From Fragilaria crotonensis (Eukaryota > Bacillariophyta > Fragilariophyceae > Fragilariales > Fragilariaceae), in the NCBI GenBank assembly GCA_022925895.1, contig JAKSYS010000798.1:1-24603 (forward strand): 24,603 nucleotides of DNA, in the 5' to 3' direction. The notes under the pieces are model-generated. The model saw nothing but the letters and a program-made list of their open reading frames with translations, did no database searches and had not been told where the DNA came from. A program made the translations under genes and the position numbers. This document shows positions 1 to 23,068 of the stretch, piece by piece; position 1 is the first letter of the stretch; each line of letters begins with the position of its first letter.

Positions 1-174
1 CGAAAGAGACACGTGTCGTCTACGCAGATCCGTATGAAGACATTTTATGTAAGTGAAATTTCACTTATGGTCAGGAATTCCACTACGGTAAGTGGAATTT
101 CACTTACCGTAAGTGGAATTTCTTACATAAAATGTCTTCATACGGATCTGCGTAGACGACACGTGTCTCTTTCG
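1..174. repeat. Perfect 53-nt inverted repeat (arms 1-53 and 122-174)
   Basis: Bases 1-53 are the exact reverse complement of 122-174, separated by a 68-nt loop that is itself palindromic. The arms begin CGAAAGAGACACGTGTCG and run inward to TTTTATGTAAG. The match reaches the first base of the window, so the arm may extend further left. A perfect 53-bp stem implies a recent origin or gene conversion. Confidence 0.95.
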
Positions 175-244
175 GATTGTGAGTAAGTGAAATTCCACTT
201 ACCGTAAGTGGAATTCCACTGACCGTAAGTGGAATTTCACTTAG
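88..244. repeat. 20-nt palindromes, 21-nt period, consensus GTAAGTGGAATTCCACTTAC
   Basis: Near-perfect 20-nt palindromes start at 88, 109 (truncated by the fold-back arm), 183, 204 and 225. Each has the form GTAAG, a variable core around AATT, then CTTAC. Adjacent copies are separated by a single base, giving a 21-nt period, or about two helical turns. Another partial copy lies at 50-66. Confidence 0.85.
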
Positions 245-661
245 CATGAGAATACCTTGCCGGCTCGTTTGGATCAACCGTTCCAGCTACAAATATCGCA
301 ACACACGTTATTGGAAGCCAGCGTACGTGGAATTACTCCGGTAACGGAGCTTAACGGCTAGAACTTGTTTTGGCCGGACCTTCCTGTCGTTCTTCGAGCG
401 TCGTGGGTGCATCACAGACGCGTCTCATTTTTTTCGCTTCTGATGTTGGTCCTGTTAACTTGTTAACATGTAAACAAATTTTTCGTCGCCAATAATCCGA
501 TCGGTTGATCCTTTGCCTTGACCATAGTCCGCATCCTAGAGCGTTAATTGAGGTAGAAACCATGAGGATAGAAACTAAAGTTGTTGCAAGAAACAAACGG
601 TTCGCTTCCTTGTCCCCATTAACAACTTAGGTGTACCTGCGTCGCAAAGCTTGGCAACAAG

Positions 662-1732
662 ATGAATGTGGCACTTGAGCCTCAGGCTCATTTTGTCTAT
701 GACAGAGACTTGGCAGAATCCTTCCTGTTTCCCGAAAGTTCACATTCTGAGCACCGTTTCCGGTACGTTGGACCTCGATATGCTCTCGAGGACCCATCCG
801 ATGTCGCTTCACCAACACATAACGAACCTGAGAAAACATTAATGAAAAGCGTAGCAAGCGTTGCACGGTTTTTGAAGAAGGCACAAGAGAAGGGTTTATG
901 TTTAGAGGAACTACTAGACGACGAGACTGCAGATTCGATCATTACTTTCCTCACCGAACAAACCTGTGCCTCCACCACCGACGGATCCACTCGAGGTGAA
1001 GCAGAGAACAAGACCACGGAGCGACCCTGTCATCCAACAGAGGTTATACATTCCAAACACTGTGTACGCGAGGCGACATTAAGCGAGATTGGACCCTCGA
1101 AAGATGATACTCCACCTTCATCAACCTCAAGTGCGAAGGCGAAACGGAAGCCGACGAAGTCGAGAAAATCGCCATCATCGAAAGCGTCAAAAACCACTAC
1201 GGGTAGCTGTCCTGAGGCTAGGGGAACTCAAGAGTTTACAAATTCGAGAGAGACGCATCGAACAAATTCTGAGGCAGTCGCTTTGCGAACCAATAGTGTT
1301 GGCGTAAAATCAGCGAAGAGGAAACCCAAACGCCCGACAAGGAAATCAGTGGTATCCAAACCTTCCACACCCAAGAAGATGTCAAGGTCACGGAAACACC
1401 GCTCGGAAGCAGCGTTCGCCGAAGTCTCACGCACACACCCAGGCGTTTTTGACATGTTAGACGCTCCAGATGACTTGAAAGCAACACCCAGAGAAGCAGA
1501 AACGCCAGCCCCAGGTTTTACTTATGAGCAAAAGAGTGGAAAAAGCAATGCCTTCAGAAATCGATCGTTCCGAAACCTGCATCATCACCCTCTGAAAGAC
1601 TTTTTGCACGTCGCCATCAAAGAGCGGAGATGGTTCAATTTCCCAGTTCGTTATGCCAAAGGCGCTCGCGGGGATGACGATGTGATCAGTTTGCTTTCAG
1701 ACGTTTCGATACACCCCTCGCCGTCGCCGTAG
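662..1732 (+). CDS. Unrecognised basic, Ser/Lys-rich protein (356 aa), probably nuclear
   Basis: This is an uninterrupted 356-codon frame starting at an ATG. I do not recognise a family. The N-terminal 100 residues are mixed and mildly acidic, with a Glu/Asp-rich patch near residues 80-100. Two strongly basic Lys/Arg/Ser/Pro clusters follow, around residues 158-180 (KAKRKPTKSRK) and 216-250 (KSAKRKPKRP, then SRSRKHRSE). They resemble nuclear localisation or nucleic-acid-binding tails. The C-terminal 50 residues include a more ordered, aromatic stretch (KDFLHVAIKERRWFNFPVRY) and a Pro/Ser end. No signal peptide or membrane segment is seen. Element A ends 278 nt upstream, and an AATAAA lies about 108 nt after the stop. 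Most of the protein looks disordered, so its coding status rests mainly on frame length and lack of stops. Confidence 0.65.
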   Translation: MNVALEPQAHFVYDRDLAESFLFPESSHSEHRFRYVGPRYALEDPSDVASPTHNEPEKTLMKSVASVARFLKKAQEKGLCLEELLDDETADSIITFLTEQTCASTTDGSTRGEAENKTTERPCHPTEVIHSKHCVREATLSEIGPSKDDTPPSSTSSAKAKRKPTKSRKSPSSKASKTTTGSCPEARGTQEFTNSRETHRTNSEAVALRTNSVGVKSAKRKPKRPTRKSVVSKPSTPKKMSRSRKHRSEAAFAEVSRTHPGVFDMLDAPDDLKATPREAETPAPGFTYEQKSGKSNAFRNRSFRNLHHHPLKDFLHVAIKERRWFNFPVRYAKGARGDDDVISLLSDVSIHPSPSP

Positions 1733-2155
1733 GCAATACTTCCTAGAAACATATTGGTCTGAAAATTACAGACAACCGTATCATCGCCAATCATCTGCGT
1801 GTCTTCACGCGCTCTCGTGCCTCTCTTTGCCTAACTAGAAATAAATGCGCTAAGAACTACAATAGAAACGAAGAACAAGCAAGAGGATCCACCTTTGAAT
1901 TTTGGAAGTGGTTCTGCTTGTAAGTTGAAAGTTTGGGTAGTCATCTTCCTTCACAAACTAGCTCAGTAACCATGCACAGTTCTGGAGTTCCGTTCAACTG
2001 CTAAATGGCCTGCAGATCAAGTACGGTGTATGCAACAGACGTACGATTCGTTGAACTGAGAAAATCCCATAACAGAGTGTCATTATAATTCAAATCGATG
2101 AACCCACGAGTCCCAACGTTGGTCAGAAACGCACCAAGCAATCCAACACGTTACA
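1733..2155. other. Convergent intergenic spacer
   Basis: The spacer lies between the 3' ends of the 662-1732 gene (+) and SLD5 (-). An AATAAA at 1840-1845 could serve the + strand gene as a polyadenylation signal. I see no gene or repeat in it. Confidence 0.5.
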
Positions 2156-3039
2156 TCAAAGTTCAATTCTTGCCTCCAACACTAGTCTCTGTATCGCGCC
2201 GTACCGAGCTATCAAACACGAGCCCTTGCTGTGATATTGATCTCCGATTTCAACGTCTTCGAGAGTTTTGCAAAAGAGGAAGCGATTCAGATCTGGCGTT
2301 TCCACCATTTCAGGGTCGTCCAACTTTTTCCATGCCTCCTTGGGCATGTGGTCGAGGACAGTGCGGTGAAAGTGCTTTTCCAAGAGCTCGCCGTACGCCT
2401 TCAAATGTGAAACCTGATATGTGCGAACAGAGAAAGAGAGAGAGAAAATACGTGCCAAGAACAACGAATCAGAGGCTTGGCGAAAATTTTAAAAAAAGCC
2501 GACCACATGGAACTCACTTCTTTGTCACTCAAGCGATCCAATACTGTCCTATTGTGCAAGGCGTGTGCTTCCAGCTTGTTGAGACGCGTGACCAAAAGAT
2601 CTGACAAAATAAATTTGGTTCGCTCGACGTCCAATCGGTAGATATGGGCCACGAGGGCGTCCACATTCTTCGTCGAGGTTAGCGCGTCGATTGTCTCCTC
2701 TTGACCTTCAATCAACTCCTGCTCCAATGAGATTGTATCATGATCGTACGGTAGTAGTTCTGGACATAGCATTTCCTTGATCCAGGCAGCTTTCAGCCGA
2801 GCATAATCTTCATCTTGAGACATATGCAGGGTCGCCCCAAGGTCGTCGTCGAATTGTCCGACGACATCAACGTCTTCATCGTCATACTGGTTCTTGCGTT
2901 CGTGGGCGGCCTTCAGGACTTCAGGAACTCCTTCGTAATCGCGATCGATTTCTTCTTCACGTTCAACGGGAGGCTGCGACAAAATTTCATCTTCTTGTGC
3001 GCCGTCAAGCTCAGCGAGTAAATTGTTCAGGTCGGCCAT
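2156..3039 (-). CDS. SLD5: DNA replication complex GINS subunit SLD5 (two exons)
   Basis: SLD5 is one of the four GINS subunits. With Cdc45 and Mcm2-7 it forms the CMG replicative helicase in the nucleus. Exon 1 runs 3039-2518 (174 codons from ATG) and exon 2 runs 2413-2156. Joined in phase 0 they give 259 residues, within the usual family range of about 220-295. The N-terminal 75 residues are acidic. The alpha-helical A domain follows, with the family signature LKAAWIKEMLCPELLPYD and then the RLDVERTKFILSDLL / RLNKLE helix. Exon 2 carries the small B domain (PDLNRFLFCKTLEDVEI) and ends in the typical IARYGAIQRLVLEARIEL terminus. The intron has clean GTGAGT and CAG borders. A GTAC-rich island lies about 130 bp upstream of the ATG. 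Recognition is from conserved motifs; no search was run. Confidence 0.9.
2414..2517 (-). other. Spliceosomal intron in SLD5 (104 nt)
   Basis: On the minus strand the donor is GTGAGT directly after codon GAA (exon end at 2518). The acceptor is CATATCAG before GTTTCACATTTG (exon 2 start at 2413). Removal is in phase 0 and fuses the two halves of the GINS protein. Read-through runs into A/T-rich sequence that does not match the family. Confidence 0.85.
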
Positions 3040-3170
3040 GGTTACTGGTTACGGGATGAGATCATCGATGATATTCGGAGTTCGATGTCCTGTCTTCTAC
3101 CATTTTGTACTGGCAACTAACATATTTCAGTTCACGCTCCTGATCGTATTGCGCGCCAAAGTTTTCGATA

Positions 3171-3314
3171 TACTGGTACTCGAGTACACTGCATGTACTC
3201 GGAGACTTGGAGTACTGGAGTACTCGAGTACCAGGTACTGTAGTACAGTAGTCCGAATTCCGAATACCCATGTTCCCATCAATACCAGGTACTCGGAGTA
3301 TGTCATACTGGTAG
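3171..3314. repeat. GTAC-rich palindromic island 1
   Basis: This is a short tract dense in GTACT, GGTAC, CTCGAG and CAGTAC words, many forming small palindromes such as GTACTCGAGTAC. It lies 132-275 bp upstream of the SLD5 start codon. It is not a simple tandem repeat; the words recur irregularly. Similar islands recur at 3891, 12349, 15749 and 22772. Confidence 0.75.
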
Positions 3315-3890
3315 CAACCTTGTTAGAGCTCTTATGATGGACAACAGTTCATTATCCTGTACACCAAGCGATGTTTAGCGCTGCCAATGTTCAGTATTTT
3401 ACGGAATCTTGATTTGTTGCACTTTTTCAATTTCCATAATCCAATATGATATAAGTTTAAGAGTAAATAGTCTTGTTTTCCAGATTTTCGCAATATTGTC
3501 AATTTGGAGTTCCTTCGTTGCATGACTCATACCTTTACTGACAGTATTTTCTGTTTTACTGCTGGTACTAGATCATTAACATGCTTGCTACTCATACTAG
3601 CTCATCATTTGTTCTAGAAATGCACCCAGCCAGTGAACCATCATGTGACATGCATTGAATCCATCACAATGGAATGTTTCATCATTCTAGATTGTGGTCA
3701 AGCACAATATCAAAGCCACCAATCAACAGCAGATTTGCTGGTAACTTCTTCATGACAAAGGTCTTTTGGAGATCAACAAGGGATCCATGAATATCATGGC
3801 GAACTCATTCTTTGGCTGAAATCTCAAATATGAAGGAACTTTAGCTATAGGAGGAAAGAAAGGTACAAGGATGCAATCTGTCACAGCTCT
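3315..3890. other. Intergenic sequence, no gene seen
   Basis: This is mixed, A/T-leaning sequence between two GTAC-rich islands. I see no protein-coding frame with recognisable motifs and no RNA gene. It may hold the distal part of the SLD5 promoter region. Confidence 0.4.
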
Positions 3891-4196
3891 CCAGTACCAG
3901 GTACTCTTGGCTCGTTCATGAACAGTACATGTCCTTGCTACTGGTACCTTCTACCGGTACTTGTACCTTGTTGTGATTGGGTAAGAACAATTTGCCCGCC
4001 GTATGTCACTACCGGTAGTCTAGTAGTACTCAAATAACGATCGAAGTAGGATGTTCCGAGTTCCAAGTACGTACCTGTAGCGGTACCATTCATGTTGGTA
4101 CCAGGTACTACCGGTAGTGCCAGCCGCTGGACGCCAGATATGCATAGCTCCCGTTGAGCACCGAGAACATAGTACTGTACAAGTAGTACATGGTAT
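3891..4196. repeat. GTAC/TACCGGTA-rich island 2
   Basis: The island is dense in GGTACC, TACCGGTA, AGTACT and CAGTAC, with several perfect short palindromes (ACTACCGGTAGT occurs near 4010 and 4108). It sits about 300 bp before the decayed transposase frame. It has the same word set as the islands at 3171, 12349, 15749 and 22772. Confidence 0.75.
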
Positions 4197-4501
4197 CACC
4201 TATCACGCTATCACATATTCATATGTACGGTGGTTGGTGGTTCGCCTCCTATGACGCGTTAAACGGGGACGACGACAGCTACTGTATGGCTGGGTGCAAA
4301 AGCGGAAAACATGTAGTAGAAATACGTAGATCTGGTACAAAACGTCAGCAAAACCTCAACCTTGTGAATGAACCCATGGAACATAAAAAAAATGGCGCGC
4401 TGCTTTTCGTGCTTTGATGATCCGACAATGATGGTCCATATCTTGACGGGAACATTGCAGCTCAAAGTAGTAGGACCGGTTATAGCTCATTGATTAGCAG
4501 T
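4197..4501. other. Leader region of the decayed transposase
   Basis: A 75-codon ATG frame (4190-4417) lies in the same frame as the transposase and ends at a tandem TGATGA (4415-4420). After it the frame is open to 4502. It may be a decayed N-terminal extension or chance; it has no recognisable motif. No terminal inverted repeat pairing this side with the 7768-7986 side was found by eye. Confidence 0.3.
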
Positions 4502-7500
4502 ATGAGCAAGATGTTGCCTTACTACATCGGGCGGCAAGGCAGTAGTCATTTTATTCTCGCTTCATTTCAAGCAGCCATCTGCGAAACCTCCCTCCACAAT
4601 AAATGGTTGCACGTTGACGTTTTGCATGAATATATGCATCAACAATACTGCTCCAATGGCCTTCATTTTAGCATAGCCACAATGACCAGATGTATCAACA
4701 AAGCTTGTCAAGGCAGCTCGTATATTGCTAACTACGCGGAGCTTCCCAACGGTACGAAGCTCGACATGTATATACAGCATCAACGATGTAATGGGGAGAC
4801 AAAAAAGTCCTATTACTATTACATAACTAAGAACGGAACAGCAAAACCGACCCTTCCTTCAGCGCGTAATGCAGCAGCCTGGGAAGCAGACTTTGTCGCT
4901 GTCAATAGGCTTCTCCCTCCAGCGACACGTCAACGGCCCGAGCTTGTCAACGTAGTACTCAGCACCAACAACGACACCAATAAAAAACGACGACCACCAC
5001 CACCACCATCCTCGTCTCCGGACGAGGATGCAGCAGGAACAAAGAGGTCAAGACGACACAGTAGATTGTTGAATGGGGGGAGCTCCATAGCGCCATCGTG
5101 TGATGACGCTACTTCATCGCCCGACGATGATGCCATTTTGGCATCGTCGTCTGAGGAATGACATCTTGAAGCAGCCATAGATATCACTGAAGAACACACG
5201 GCGGCAGTAGGTAGCCAAGATGACATCCACAGTAACAATGTTTCTTCATTGGCTTCCTCGCATCGTTGTTCTGAAACGTATTGGGACTCTCCTGAAGCCA
5301 AAAAGCTGTTCCGACCGCTAGATTCTGAGCCCACTGTCATTGCTGCCGTCGATAACCAAATCGAAACCCTTTGACACGTCAACAAGAGTGCAAATGCTTG
5401 CGTCGACATCATCGCTGGAAATCTCGAGGACGAACTAAACGAAGACAACATCACACAACATCAAAAATGGGTCATTCAACAGAAAGCACAATATCTTGTC
5501 TTATCCCTGCAACTTGCGAAGGACGAGATGAACGCGTGGACATGGGAAAAATGCTGTGAGCATGCAGTCTGTCAACTAGAAAGGCAAGGCGTGACATACG
5601 CTACTCACCATGAAACTGTTTGCAAATGGTACCGAAGCTTCCGCAAGACACGTTGCTTTCTCATTCCGCAAACCAAGAAAAACCTTCCGCCATTTCTCCA
5701 AGATAATCCAGACATCTGTACCAATTTAAAGAAATACGCTCGGGAGAACCTTGACACACTCAGCATCAAGATGCTCAGTGAATACATCCACGACAAAGTC
5801 TTACCAAACCTAATCATGGACATTTTGAACGAGACAGAGAAAAGTGTGAGAGCAATGATGGCAACCAAGAAGGACAAATACAACAACCACCTTCGGCTTG
5901 TTCTCAAGCAATATGGGCTTACCTGCGTGAGCCCTGCAACAGTCTACCGCTGGATGATCCGCCTTGGCTTCCGGTATCAGCCAACTCGCAAAGGGTATTA
6001 CGTCGATGGCCACGAACGTCCGGCCACAATACAATATAGATGGGATTTCTGTCGGCGCTATTTTTCATATGAAAGAAGGATGCATTGCTGGGTGCAAGTA
6101 ACCGAAACTGTGGCAAAACAACTTGAGAAAGAGGATATGATTGCAAAAGGTAGCGGTTACTCTTACCTTACTAATGACTCGACTCCAATGCGAGAATACC
6201 ATGTTGACAGCTTTGACCCCAAAAAGAGCAAGGAGTTCTTAGGACAAATTGTGACAACCGAATTTGGTGGCAACCTCTCTGTCCGCATTCAACCATCCTC
6301 CAAGCCATTGATAAGTTTTGGGCACGACGAATGCATATTCAAACAGTTTCCAACGCCCACGAAACAGTGGTACGGTCCCAACAAAGAAACGTTCATGCGC
6401 CCGAAAGATGATGGCTGGACATGGGATAATGATCTCTGCTTTTCAATCGAGGGAATTTGGATTTGGCCTTGATGTGACGGAGGCAGACCTGAAAGAAGTG
6501 AACAGACGACAAGAAGGGGTTAGATATTGTGACACACAAGCTGCACTCGAAATGAGGAAAAGCGAATACAAGTCTCCACTTACAACTTCTCCATTTGTTT
6601 TGGAGTTTGAGTACGGACAAAACGCTGATGGCTACTGGACATATCAGCACATGGTGCTGCAGCTTGAGGACTGCGTGGACGTTCTCAATGTTAAGTATCC
6701 TCAAGAATATGACTTTCTCTTTCTATTCGACCACTCTTGTGGTCACGATCGACAACGAGAGGACGGATTAAATGTGGAGAAGATGTCAAAAACCTACGGA
6801 GGACGAGCGCAGCAGCGGAAGATGCGTGAGACAATGATCAAACAAAGAAGTCAAGGATACCTCGGCCCGCACTCACCTAAGCTTCAAGTCGGAGACACGC
6901 AATCGATGGTCTTCAGTGCAATGGACTCAGGTCCTTTCTGGATGACGGCAGTGCAGCGGGAGGAAACTTGTCATGACCAAATTCTGGACGAGCCTACAAC
7001 GCGAGAGTTCACAAAGGACGAGCTAGTTCGAGCGCTGAAGGAACGAGGAGTTAGCGCAAAAGGCAGGAAACCAGCAGTACAAAAAATTGCACAAGAGCAT
7101 GGCTTGCCAATAAAGGAGACGAAGCCAAAAGTTGTCGAGGGATGGGAGGCTAAACCAAAGGGCCTCCTACAGGTTGCAGGTTCTTTGGGAACGCGGGATT
7201 GTTGATGAGTCAAGGCTTTCAGACTATACAATCAACGGAAGACAAAACGGGTATGGTATAGTCGACAAAACCTTCGCCTTGAAGTCATTGATGGCCAACT
7301 GCCTCGACTTTGAGGAGGAAGAGACACTTCTTCAATCAATGGGAAGAGAAATGGGGGTTCTTGTGGATCGGACGCCAAAATGCCACTGCGAGATGGCGGG
7401 GGAAGGGATTGAGTACTCGTGGGGATGTGCCAAAAACAGTTTCCGTCGTGTGCCCTTGAATCCTCGGAGACGTGGGAAGGACAACTTTCGAAACGTCATC

Positions 7501-7767
7501 AGAATGTGCCTGTCAAGTGAAAAGGTGTTAGTGACAGAGCGAATCCGATTATTCTCGAGACGAGCGAGGTCTTACATCTGTGCATATTATATGATTTGGT
7601 GCAATCGACAGGAGAGTGGAAGTGATGAAGTGAACGAAAGTGCACTCACGACAGATCCCGTCAAGATGGAGAAGATGATTAAACACTTCAAAACGCATCG
7701 TTGCGCACTCGATTTTGATCACAGCTTTTGTAAGGCGACATTCATTGACTTAACAAACGAAGATTAA
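4502..7767 (+). pseudogene. Decayed DDE transposase (extended Tc1/IS630-like) with SAP domain
   Basis: One protein is spread over three frames. Frame 1 (4502 to about 6415) has in-frame TGA stops at 5159-5161 and 5372-5374. It shifts near 6405-6425 to frame 2, then at 7170-7183 to frame 3, ending at 7767. The intact form would be about 1,090 residues. The N-terminal part is unrecognised, with a KKRRPPPPP / TKRSRRHSR basic patch. A helix-turn-helix-like segment (SPATVYRWMIRLGFRYQ) and the KGYYVDGHERP motif follow. The DDE core is: first Asp in GHDECIF (6326-6328), second Asp in LFLFDHSCGHDR (6729-6731), third Glu in GIEYSWG (7411-7413). A SAP-like motif (FTKDELVRALKERGVSAKGRK) lies between the second Asp and the Glu. 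It belongs to a widespread eukaryotic family of DDE superfamily endonucleases (Pfam DDE_3-like). It cannot be translated as it stands. Confidence 0.75.
7170..7183 (+). repeat. 7-bp tandem duplication causing a frameshift in the transposase
   Basis: The sequence reads CAGGTTG then CAGGTTC, a 6-bp identity repeated at 7-bp spacing. Removing one 7-bp unit joins the upstream frame (KPKGLLQV) to the downstream frame (LWERGIVDES) without a break, matching the family's KGLLQVLWERG segment. The duplication is therefore the likely lesion behind the second frameshift. Confidence 0.65.
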
Positions 7768-7986
7768 TGGCAAAGAACAGTAATAACTGAATAGAATGTG
7801 AGAATACTATTAACAATGACAACAACAATGGAAAGATCAACTTACGTTTGTTATGGATGACCCCCGCCAGATGGATCTTTGAGGCTCAAAGAATTGCTGA
7901 TGTCACACTCCGAAAATTTGTAAACAGAATATATTCTATACTGCATTCTACGTCTTGCTACTATTCCAAGCATTAGCGTGCACCCA

Positions 7987-8578
7987 GGAAGGTCCGGCAA
8001 TACGGGCGAAGTCTTGAATAAAGGAAGTATGCGCGCCCGCCGGGAGGGAAACAAGTTCCGATCGATGTCTGGCTGGCGCAAAATTGGATGTGCCGGCGTG
8101 GTGGTGACACGGCTGACGTCTGTAAGAAAATTTGCTCACAGCGAAAAAAAATTGCTTACTGAATGAAATTGCTTAAGGAATTTGCTTACCATAAGCAAAT
8201 CTATTGTAAGCAGAAATTTGCTTACAAAATTTGCTTACTGGGAGATTAAATTTGCTTACGGGGACTGTCTTTTCTACGTAAAAACATACCAATTTTCAAA
8301 CACCTAAATAAAATTTACTTACAGCAAAGAAGAATTTGCTTACGAAAATCAAATTTGCTTACAGAAAAAATTTGCTTACAAAATTTGCTTACCGGCATAA
8401 TTTCCTTACTGATTTTGCTTACTGTCAAGAAAAATTTGCTTTCGATGCAGCAACCTTGCCGGCTTTGATGGATCATTACGATTGCTAAAATTCTCGCATC
8501 ATGCAAATCGAGCAAGGCTGACGCGCAAACTCAACTGCCCCTAACGGTACGGCTGTAACGTGCAGGGCCGGACCTTCC
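7987..8578. mobile_element. Palindrome-rich element B with 12-bp terminal inverted repeats
   Basis: The block is bounded by GGAAGGTCCGGC (7987-7998) and its exact reverse complement GCCGGACCTTCC (8567-8578). Inside are a unique left part, an array of TTTGCTTAC words (8122-8450), and a tail from ACCTTGCCGGCT (8453) to the right end. The tail's boundary words and length (126 nt here, 131 nt in element A) match element A at 254-384. No coding capacity is seen and no target-site duplication is clear. A MITE-like non-autonomous element is the best guess; a conserved promoter block for the downstream gene is the alternative. Confidence 0.5.
8122..8450. repeat. TTTGCTTAC array with GTAAGCAAATTTGCTTAC palindromes
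   Basis: About ten copies of TTGCTTAC occur on the + strand (for example near 8181, 8219, 8231, 8252, 8337, 8355, 8372, 8384, 8416). A few reverse copies (ATAAGCAAAT, GTAAGCAG) sit among them. One clear 20-nt imperfect palindrome spans 8206-8225. Spacing is irregular, unlike the 21-nt period in element A. Confidence 0.8.
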
Positions 8579-8897
8579 ATCCATATGATACATGTATGTA
8601 CGTCACGAAGCGCGCAGACTAATCCAGGAAAAGCGCAGGTCAGGCAATCACGGGGAGAAATTTAGCAAGTTTCTTTTCGTATCAATAACCGTCATTTGCC
8701 AGCTCGTCCTCCAACTGCATGATGTGTCTGTTTTGTCACTGTGTCTATCGGAGTAAAGTCGACAGCCAATCAGTTGATTGGTCACGAAAGCGCAAATCGC
8801 AAAGCAACGTAATTTCGTTCGCCCTGGCGAGTTTAGGTTTCGGGCGACTGCAGATTGTTCCACTTTCTCCTTCCATCAGCCGGACACCGGACGAAGA

Positions 8898-9827
8898 ATG
8901 ATGAATCCTCGCCTCGCCGTTTTCCTCATGAAACGATCCCTGGTGCAGAAATCTCTTCAGAGGTCGCTCAATGCAGCGGCACCATCCAAGAGCATGAGGA
9001 TACATTCGTCTGCAAAAACGTCGCAGTCGTCCATATTGAATCTCGGTCACAGAACTAATATTGCTCAAGATTCCTCGGTCACTCCCCCATCCTTCGCGCA
9101 GCTTAAGACTTTGTTCATATCGTCGGCGATTCCCATGTTCGCCTTTGGTTTCATGGACAATTTGATTATGATTCAAGCCGGCGGATATATTGATGCGACG
9201 TTTGGGGCAGCTCTCGGCTTGGCCACTCTTGCAGCAGCCGCCATGGGACAAGTTGTGTCAGACGTAAGCGGGGTCATCTTTGGAAGTACCGTCGAGCGAT
9301 TGCTGCAACGATACAATATTGCCAAGAGCCCATGCTTGTCAAATGCACAACGTAAATTGCCCCTAGTCCGCAATGTAACCATGATTGCAATGGTGGTGGG
9401 AGTCACTTTTGGGTGTCTTCTAGGAGCTTCGTCTCTCCTATTTGTCGATTTACATGCCCATGAACGTCAAAAACGAACAGCTCAACTCAAGGACGTCATC
9501 AATGACATGGTTAATGAGGACGATTTGAGTGTGGCATGTCAACAATGCCATATTCATTTGACGGCCACAGGCACGTTCGACAAGATCGATAGCCCTACTG
9601 GACCGCAAATACGGCTATTATCAGAAGGGCCAGCCGCGAATTGTGCACGAGATCAAGTTGCACTGGTTGAAGAGAAGCGCATGTATGTTCCAATTGTCTC
9701 CAAGCAGCAAACGTTGGGTGTTCTGGAGTTTGTTGGCGATTCATTTTCGCGCGAGGATCAACGGACCGCTCGGATCATGGCGCGCCATGTAGCCATTTTT
9801 ATGGAGCGCTTAGCAGACAGTGATTGA
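8898..9827 (+). CDS. TMEM65-like membrane protein with C-terminal GAF-like domain
   Basis: This is a 309-residue protein. The start is the first real ATG of the frame (8898, ATGATG). The N-terminal 60 residues are rich in Arg, Lys and Ser with almost no acidic residues, consistent with a mitochondrial presequence. Residues 65-185 match the TMEM65 family: hydrophobic segments around FGFMDNLIMIQAGGYID and then LATLAAAAMGQVVSDVSGV, followed by a third hydrophobic stretch (GVTFGCLLGASSLLFV). Animal TMEM65 is an inner mitochondrial membrane protein linked to sodium/calcium exchange. Residues from about 195 to 305 resemble a GAF domain, with the typical VPIVSKQQTLGVLEFV strand and a closing helix (SREDQRTARIMARHVAIFME). 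The ligand is unknown; Cys residues (CQQCH, NCARD) lie in this part. Element B ends 320 bp upstream. The TMEM65 call is strong, the GAF call moderate. Confidence 0.85.
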   Translation: MMNPRLAVFLMKRSLVQKSLQRSLNAAAPSKSMRIHSSAKTSQSSILNLGHRTNIAQDSSVTPPSFAQLKTLFISSAIPMFAFGFMDNLIMIQAGGYIDATFGAALGLATLAAAAMGQVVSDVSGVIFGSTVERLLQRYNIAKSPCLSNAQRKLPLVRNVTMIAMVVGVTFGCLLGASSLLFVDLHAHERQKRTAQLKDVINDMVNEDDLSVACQQCHIHLTATGTFDKIDSPTGPQIRLLSEGPAANCARDQVALVEEKRMYVPIVSKQQTLGVLEFVGDSFSREDQRTARIMARHVAIFMERLADSD

Positions 9828-12348: not shown

Positions 12349-12540
12349 GTAGTACTGGGTATCGCAATTGGCAATACTCCAGATTCTGTGAAGTACACAA
12401 CCAGATACTCCGGAGAATCCGCCGGTAGTTTGTACTTAGTACTCCAAGTGCAACGTACTCGAGATCCAGTACTTGTCCATAGGTGGTCCATTATCCATGA
12501 CTGTACCGTATCATACAATCATACCTATTACTACAGTAGC
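12349..12540. repeat. GTAC-rich island 3
   Basis: The tract is dense in AGTACT, CAGTAC, TACTCC and TACTCGAG words, with the same vocabulary as islands 1, 2, 4 and 5. Here there is no recognised gene next to it, so it does not simply mark live promoters. It may mark decayed ones. Confidence 0.65.
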
Positions 12541-13979: not shown

Positions 13980-14036
13980 TGCATATTATCCGGATGAAAA
14001 ATGTACTTTTTGTACTTTGTACTTTCAAAGTACAAA
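13980..14036 (+). repeat. Left terminal inverted repeat of the 1.44-kb element
   Basis: The outer 20 nt are a perfect match to the reverse complement of 15403-15422. The inner part, with TTTGTACTTTCAAAGTACAAA, matches with a few differences and a small gap. Confidence 0.8.
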
Positions 14037-14741
14037 GGACAAAAAGTACAATGGGCCTCAACCGGATGCCGTATATATGAAATGTGACTTTTGCAATTTC
14101 ATTGTGAAAGACGTTTTGGGGTTCACCATCCGAAATCCCCTTTAAATCAGAAGGAGTTTTACTTACGTCGTTGAAACCTACATGGAAATCGGTACACTAC
14201 AAATACTTAATTGATTATAATCTAAGTAAAGGATATTTACTCCACGCAGACGGATTGCAAACCTAGCAAAAGTTCAAGAGACGAGCTACACAATGAAGGA
14301 AACGAGGCTTACTTAAGCAATAGCAGTCTAAATAAGTTTCAATTCAATAAATCATAAACGTAAAAAAGGATTTAAAACTTAGGGCAACACTTTTTAGGTA
14401 ATGAATCCTAACTACATATTTAGCTACATGCATGAAATGTAAATAGAAAGCAAGAAGTAGCGTACAGTGTACACACAAAATAATTTATAGGAGTACTTGT
14501 GCTTGAGTTTTGGTACAAAATGATTAGAAACATGGAAGAAGGAGTCGATCCCTGTCAAGAAGGGCAACACCATGTTGATCAATTGAATGTGTAGAGGATG
14601 GATACTACTCAACAACAATGGATATTGAAAAGAAACAATGCTTGATACAAGGATGGCAACAATGACTACGATGGCAGTGCCTTGCAAACGAAGACAAATA
14701 AATAAAACGATTGACAAAGGCAGAGACAAATTGACGACAAA

Positions 14742-14845
14742 AAACAACGATCGATTGATTGATCGAACGAAACGACTATCGATCAATTGCTCTTTAAAAA
14801 TGTCGATCAATCAATTGATCATGCAAAATGACAATCAATCAAAAG
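14742..14845. repeat. GATCAATTGATC-type palindrome cluster
   Basis: Inside the TIR element is a tract of alternating GATC, ATTGATT and CAATCAAT words (ACGATCGATTGATTGATCGA, TCGATCAATTG, CGATCAATCAATTGATCATG). It can fold on itself in several registers. No reading frame is involved. Confidence 0.6.
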
Positions 14846-15362
14846 CAGTCTAGGGCATAACAATGTTATGTCCAGAATGAGCGAGACCATGAATGACAAC
14901 GAATATAAAACTAAAATGATAATGATCATCCATTGAATATTCTTTGACCGCAACGACGAAAACGACTTACATCAGCAATGATGACGAAACCAAATTGACA
15001 ATCATCGATTGCACAATGGCAACAGAAGCAGCAATGAAGATGTAGTAGACAAGGTTACATGACACTAAATCAAATGGGCATGATGCAAAGTTTTTTTGTG
15101 TTGTACATATCGTAGGACAGAATGAGAACAAGTCACAGCCTACAGGCTGCAGTGTGCCGGCGCATGATAAATCACAGTGCCTATTTCATTCTTCAAACCG
15201 ACAGCACACAGCACACCCCATATCTCGAAAAAAGTACAAAAAGTACAATCCGGGTTCGCCTAACATCGACAATGTTATTGAAAATGTTATTGTCTTTTTG
15301 TACTTTTGAAAGTACAAAACCCGGAAACAAAAGTACATTGTTTCCGGGTTTAAGTTCCGGGT

Positions 15363-15422
15363 TTTGTACTTTTGAAAGTACAAAAGTACAATAAAGTACA
15401 AATTTCATCCGGATAATATGCA
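15363..15422 (-). repeat. Right terminal inverted repeat of the 1.44-kb element
   Basis: This pairs with 13980-14036. The subterminal word TTTTGTACTTTTGAAAGTAC occurs here and again at about 15296, each copy next to a CCGGGTTT or AAACCCGG block. The right end therefore carries extra nested hairpins that the left end lacks. Confidence 0.8.
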
Positions 15423-15515: not shown

Positions 15516-16351
15516 TATTCATACACTACACTCTACACTATGACTTCGATTTTTATGCATAGTGGTGAATAGTTGTTCCTATGCATAATCTTATTTGGAT
15601 GGGTACTGTAGTAAATTTTTGCGTGGCCACCTTGGCTCAGGAGTTATCTTCGACCAAAATATGCTGTAATGTTTTAATTTTTTTTTGCACAAACAATTTC
15701 CAGACAACAATTGCTCTTCCTCTACACAGCGTGCATCCAAAAACATGACGTACGGAGTACGGAGTACTACGGTACGGGGTACTGCTTGTACAAAATACAA
15801 TACACCCAATACCTCGCTGTCCTCTGCGTTCTGCGTGTATCTTGGGGGCACGATCGGGATCGTGAAATCGTGGCATCGGTTTACGACTTACGACGTCCTT
15901 ATCGTGTAATCCCAAGAGACCTGGTTCTGTAACATGAGAATAAACACTCTTGAATAATGGGAATACTTCAATTCAAAGTTTAACCACCATTTACCGTCTA
16001 TTCCGCGGGTTTCAGGCAAGGCTGCCGGCGAAGGTTTGAAAGTAGTTGTTCTTCATAGTATCGAATAATGATTGATCATACATGTTTTATTTCAGCCCTC
16101 TCAAATAAATCGCATACAAGGATGTATAATCAATTGTCAGAGGAGGTAGTCCGATTCGTTTCCATGTGTGTCCCCTTCTTGCACGATATACACAAGTGAA
16201 ACAACTGATCACCAAACCTCGCTAATCGGGCCGATTTGTGCACTCCTTTGTTCTCACCGCAACTCAAAGTCTACCATTACTACCAGTCAGGTAATTAACT
16301 CTCCGATCAAGCCTCTTTTCTGGCCAAGCCAATTGCACCTGCCGCCGTACA
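15516..16351. other. Upstream region of the coiled-coil gene
   Basis: No gene is recognised. The region contains GTAC island 4 at 15749-15792 and a plain A/T-leaning sequence leading to the coiled-coil start codon at 16352. It presumably holds the promoter and 5' leader. Confidence 0.4.
15749..15792. repeat. GTAC-rich island 4
   Basis: A compact run ACGTACGGAGTACGGAGTAC, then TACGGTACGGGGTACTGC. It has seven GTAC-type words in about 45 bp, some 560 bp upstream of the coiled-coil gene's ATG. Confidence 0.7.
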
Positions 16352-22496: not shown

Positions 22497-23068
22497 GATG
22501 ATTAGTTTTGCCTTAATGGAGAAAAGTGGGTGTTGTAAATGGGAATGCGATGGTTTCTCGGTTGTCTACAAGTGAAATGCGAAGGTCTATGATGACACCA
22601 AAGAAATCTGACGGTTCGCAACAAGTTGAGGAGAAAGGTTCCACGTGGGAATTCGTATGGGTTCCACGTTCCACCTCCTATCGATTCCAAGAAATTCTAA
22701 ATCCGTCAGCTTGCCTTTCTCCTTCTCGCACTGATCTGTCATCACGTACCTCATCGAGTAAGATGCATAATACAAGTACTACCGGTAGTACCGGTAGACT
22801 GCATGTACTTGTACTTCTGTACAACTTGAATCTCTGAATACAGTACTGTACACAAGAGTACGCAGCTGTACCAGGGTTCCAGGGTACGTGTACTGTGTAC
22901 TGGTACCGCGTGCTTGCGTGAAACATTGTATACCTTTGATTCCTGTGACAACCCAAACCAAATCTTGCTTGTGAGGGAAAGACATTCCGTATCTTCTACT
23001 AGATCACACTATCACACTAGCTCGAGCATTGACCAGAGAGTGTTCAGAGACTACTCGGAACTCGGAGT
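22497..23068. promoter_or_regulatory. Divergent promoter spacer between clpB and the BTB gene
   Basis: This 572-bp region must contain both 5' ends. It includes a direct repeat GGTTCCACGT at 22638-22647 and 22660-22669 (22 bp apart, the first overlapping a CACGTG box) and GTAC island 5. No convincing TATA box or heat-shock element was found by eye. Confidence 0.4.
22772..22908. repeat. GTAC/TACCGGTA-rich island 5
   Basis: It contains ACTACCGGTAGTACCGGTAG, several GTACTTGTAC and CAGTACTGTAC words, and GTACTGGTACC. It is the same word family as islands 1-4 and lies between two divergent genes. Confidence 0.75.

Follow-up and report, generated by a model that had tools for sequence, protein, structure and literature searches.

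Layout of elements A and B

The window analysed here, a 24,603-nt stretch of a contig from the diatom Fragilaria crotonensis, carries two small elements in which an array of short motifs is followed by a right-hand tail. Element A occupies the left edge of the window (1-384) and element B lies at 7987-8578. Pfam matches among the open reading frames (ORFs) of the window include TMEM65 and Sld5, which fit a eukaryote. The features of the two elements are as follows.

1-174, no strand assigned: inverted repeat at the window start; perfect 53-nt arms at 1-53 and 122-174, with 68 nt between them
49-244, + strand: motif array of element A; half-site AATTYCACTTAC, near-perfect 20-nt palindromes, 21-nt period (TRF, with palindrome and half-site counts)
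254-384, + strand: right-hand tail of element A, ending in the terminus GCCGGACCTTCC (373-384)
7987-7998, + strand: left terminal inverted repeat of element B, GGAAGGTCCGGC (exact match search)
7999-8121, + strand: left domain of element B, G+C rich, with GCCGGC at 8092
8122-8443, + strand: half-site array of element B, AATTTGCTTAC, mostly direct, 30% G+C
8453-8578, + strand: right-hand tail of element B, homologous by alignment to 254-384 and closed by the right terminal inverted repeat (8567-8578)

Element B is closed by inverted termini

Element B is a closed unit of 592 nt, in which GGAAGGTCCGGC at 7987-7998 is mirrored by its exact reverse complement at 8567-8578 (12 of 12 nt). This closure is absent from the sequence-only reading of the locus that preceded our analysis, which had described A and B as two arrays of 20-nt GTAAG...CTTAC palindromes. 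The composition of B changes along its length, with a G+C content of 0.585 in 7987-8121, 0.303 in the array and 0.528 in the tail, compared with 0.454 for the window. The hexamer GCCGGC occurs at 8092, 105 nt from the left end of B, and at 8458, 115 nt from its right end; it is further present at 259 and at three places outside both elements. When the 12-nt terminus is counted, the left domain of B compares with its own tail at z 2.3 and with the tail of A at z 3.4; in both cases the shuffle maximum exceeds the observed score, and the left domain would be related to the tails weakly at best.

Within B, AATTTGCTTAC occurs with up to one mismatch 14 times on the + strand and once on the − strand; one more copy lies outside B. 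Allowing two mismatches gives 27 matches over the whole window, for which 9.2 would be expected, and 17 of the 27 lie in B; none of 100 shuffles reaches 27. A stretch of the array at about 8260-8311 is free of half-sites. Start-to-start distances between half-sites (8129-8433) repeatedly take the values 13, 17 and 21 nt, which make up 10 of the 14 distances in this small sample. The single-strand fold of B is better than that of shuffled sequences (z −5.6), and we draw no inference from it because the motif array alone could produce such a value.

The arrays of A and B differ in design

The array of A is resolved by TRF into two parts, 49-122 and 183-243, both of period 21, with a spacer at about 123-182 interrupting them. 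It contains four 20-nt palindromes, starting at 49, 88, 183 and 204, each with one unmatched arm position. The half-site AATTYCACTTAC, allowing one mismatch, is found in A five times on the + strand and seven times on the − strand (of the seven, the one at 323 belongs to the tail); the rest of the window has none. Of the 13 matches to AATTCCACTTAC in the whole window, 12 fall inside 1-384 (one in the tail, at 323); the expected number is 2.1, and 0 of 100 shuffles reach 13. Element B has a single GTAAG...CTTAC 20-mer, at 8206-8225, and its arms disagree at two positions.

Both arrays are therefore real and above chance, as had been proposed, although neither of the palindromes originally quoted occurs exactly. 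The 20-nt palindrome design describes A, with its four near-perfect copies, but not B, where the half-sites are mainly direct, the only 20-mer is imperfect and the palindrome as quoted has a core of 18 nt instead of 20. The edit distance between AATTTCACTTAC and AATTTGCTTAC is two and that between AATTCCACTTAC and AATTTGCTTAC is three. The cores of A and B differ by one indel and one substitution, which, together with the mostly direct half-sites of B, gives no support to the idea of a core that is swapped within a fixed 20-nt palindrome frame. The site-free spacers of the two arrays are dissimilar (114 of 300 shuffles reach the observed score, and 125 of 300 on the reverse strand), and we rejected spacer homology on these counts.

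A and B share a tail and an exact terminus

The claim that the same tail follows both arrays was borne out. The opening ACCTTGCCGGCT-N5-GGATCA is present in each element, with ACCTTGCCGGCT at 254 and 8453 and GGATCA at 271 and 8470, and the closing GGCCGGACCTTCC lies at 372-384 in A and 8566-8578 in B, which delimits tails of 131 and 126 nt. GGATCA itself is found elsewhere in the window, six more times on the + strand and nine times on the − strand. Local alignment of the tails gives a score of 30 over about the first 50 nt; the maximum among dinucleotide shuffles is 22, and 0 of 300 reach the observed score. The tail interiors (first 23 and last 13 nt removed) score 32.0 with z 3.1, and the maximum of 500 simple shuffles is higher, at 36.5. 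The 120-nt right flanks of A and B show no likeness, with 94 of 300 shuffles scoring at least as high, so the homology stops at CCTTCC.

The exact 12-nt terminus has three copies in the window, all of them element ends (two in B, and one on the right of A); in 100 shuffles three copies are never reached and none has even one. With up to two mismatches there are four matches, a number that 4 of 100 shuffles reach, and the weight therefore rests on the exact identity of the terminus. Judged by sequence comparison, the two tails are homologous. It is highly improbable that A and B are unrelated arrays with a coincidental resemblance. In this respect the motifs taken alone are modest evidence, as 28 of 3000 random 11-mers lie within two edits of some window of the A palindromes, and the tail interiors alone are weakly similar; the common tail and the common exact terminus argue against coincidence. 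The likeness of the motifs is suggestive by itself and becomes convincing only together with the tail. With homologous tails that stop at CCTTCC, a common 12-nt terminus and half-sites two edits apart, the earlier assignment of A and B to one family is supported.

The inverted repeat at the window start

Only the right end of A is inside the window; its left end is beyond position 1, and the window begins within the inverted repeat. The single-strand fold of 1-384 is very stable (z −22) because of this 53-nt perfect repeat. Its location at the contig edge means that the repeat may be real, as a foldback, or an assembly product. One could regard A as one half of a large inverted repeat with its centre near 87 and B as a decayed form of the same foldback-type family, an explanation that draws on the perfect arms and the stable fold; by coordinate arithmetic, A mirrored about this centre would measure about 593 nt, against 592 nt for B. 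We consider this rather improbable, since A contains a long perfect inverted repeat and B does not: at its two ends B has the 12-nt pair only, no inverted pair of at least 18 nt is listed within it, and at z 2.3 its left domain does not clearly mirror its tail. A perfect inverted repeat at a contig edge, moreover, can arise in assembly.

Position relative to open reading frames

A and B are equally oriented upstream of ORFs. The tail of A ends 277 nt before the ATG at 662, and that of B 319 nt before the ATG at 8898; the latter ORF is the one with the Pfam match to TMEM65. These positions are what would be expected if A and B were host cis-regulatory modules, each an array of transcription-factor half-sites with a promoter-like tail upstream of a gene. 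This explanation seems unlikely to us. A mobile unit accounts better for the perfect inverted termini at both ends of B and for homology that goes no further than the terminus, and the motif is not the same in A and B. Miniature inverted-repeat elements (MITEs) are also often located near genes.

Comparison with known classes of element

Like MITEs, A and B are short, non-coding (the longest ORFs are 50 aa in A and 53 aa in the 592 nt of B) and located near ORFs, and perfect terminal inverted repeats are seen at B (12 of 12 nt). Unlike a MITE, B, the one complete copy, shows no target-site duplication: its flanks read CACCCA on the left and ATCCAT on the right, no 4-mer or longer word adjoins both termini, the adjoining two and three bases differ, and agreement is limited to the one base next to each terminus (A and A). 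A further difference is the motif array, which at 8122-8443 takes up over half of the 592 nt of B. The duplication may have been lost by mutation or by recombination between copies, or insertion may have taken place without one. Because it was looked for and not found, we call the elements MITE-like and do not file them as MITEs.

With non-autonomous CACTA (En/Spm) elements, as described in an excerpt of PMC2613891, A and B have in common arrays of a short motif, both direct and inverted, within short inverted termini; allowing one mismatch, the motif of B occurs there 14 times on the + strand and once on the − strand, and that of A occurs in A five and seven times. CACTA subterminal repeats likewise occur in both orientations, and their motifs diverge between two soybean subfamilies, as the motif does between A and B (PMC2613891, same excerpt). 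The termini of A and B differ from CACTA, being of the form GGAAGG...CCTTCC with GGAAGGTCCGGC as the terminus, and B has one central array instead of two subterminal motif zones. The 2-3 nt target-site duplication of CACTA elements is absent from B, where the left flank ends in CCA and the right begins with ATC, and a Pfam scan of 10 ORFs of the window (49 are listed) gave no match to a tnp2-type transposase.

Searches for relatives

No further copy and no autonomous partner was found in the viral, bacterial/archaeal and phage collections searched; as these collections were not made for algal repeats, the absence of relatives from them says little. The exact tail pattern had no match in viral or in bacterial/archaeal contigs, and the tandem B motif had none in viral contigs. 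The A palindrome in its originally quoted spelling was also absent from viral contigs, a weak test, given that the window itself lacks an exact match to this spelling. A looser frame pattern picked out one viral and four bacterial stretches, none of which (0 of 5) has the exact tail opening or terminus. Within 300 nt on either side these contain 3, 3, 4, 3 and 7 copies of CTTAC/GTAAG, compared with 9 for A and 14 for B, where the loose-frame match itself supplies three and one stretch ends at a contig end. We took these five stretches as chance matches and not as relatives.

A blastn search of 7960-8620 against phages gave no match, and neither Rfam at the gathering threshold nor ARAGORN reported anything. 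Literature searches with the terminus and motif strings returned no paper on algae by title, and among the matches listed for the motif strings and for diatom and repeat terms, titles and abstract openings do not describe the family. MITEs are reported in the diatom Phaeodactylum tricornutum in an excerpt of PMC5859163. The repeat family is real and of an ordinary kind, and it is probably undescribed.

A model for the A/B family

The perfect inverted termini, the sharp end of homology and the two diverged copies point to a DNA transposon family. The interpretation that we favour, as the likely one, places A and B, as diverged copies, in one family of small DNA elements that are non-coding, MITE-like and bounded by terminal inverted repeats, a family known here from one complete copy (B) and one partial copy (A). 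Such elements would be non-autonomous, and cleavage at GGAAGGTCCGGC would be the work of a transposase encoded by an autonomous element at another place in the genome. A transposon-encoded protein may load on the CTTAC-type half-sites in the manner of TNPA, which recognises the subterminal repeats of Spm/En, these repeats being needed in cis for excision (excerpt of PMC2613891). By analogy only, an Spm/En-like mode of working would be the most economical account, with CACTA termini and duplication absent.

Within each copy, the likeness of the motifs could be kept by local duplication of array units, through slippage or unequal exchange. Between copies the motifs would have diverged to AATTYCACTTAC and AATTTGCTTAC, presumably along with the binding protein's specificity. 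With a period of 21 nt, close to two turns of DNA, the sites in A would come to lie on one face of the helix. It is also conceivable, though we do not expect it, that the binding-site array of this inverted-repeat family is a replaceable module, with the ends and tail staying recognisable and insertion leaving no target-site duplication; the array motif would then follow a rapidly evolving binding protein, changing and being rehomogenised lineage by lineage. For CACTA elements, subfamilies with diverged motifs have been described before (excerpt of PMC2613891). By themselves A and B amount to a new repeat family of an ordinary sort. Should there be more copies, the family would reveal transposon binding motifs and their protein diverging together while the cleavage site stays fixed.

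Other features of the window

A similar layout recurs in the window at 13980-15422. This unit is 1443 nt long, has inverted ends of 30 nt (93%) and carries GTACTTT motifs, direct and inverted, near both of them. Among these motifs is a 24-nt repeat found in identical form at 15296 and 15362, and the longest ORF of the unit is 90 aa; TA or TATGCA can be read on both of its sides. A single weak inverted match to B is listed (8148-8177 with 14088-14117, 73%), which we take as chance. As a 20-mer, the inverted end of the unit had no match in viral contigs.

Transposase-like open frames, broken by frame changes, extend over 4421-7767. They give weak Pfam matches below the cut-offs, to the winged helix-turn-helix family HTH_33 (E 0.00051) and to SAP (E 0.0057). 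The frame at 6507-7202 had three pattern matches and no relatives in viral contigs, and that at 6315-7205 had no match among solved structures. We rejected these frames as the autonomous partner of A and B, the exact left terminus being absent to their left; a match to the terminus with two mismatches lies inside them, at 6013.

The window contains 133 copies of the tetramer GTAC, where base composition would predict about 94, with clusters at 3176-3292, 3863-4228, 12352-12506, 15750-15791 and 22746-22906 that hold up to 14 copies in 161 nt. These clusters seem to form a separate palindrome-rich class.
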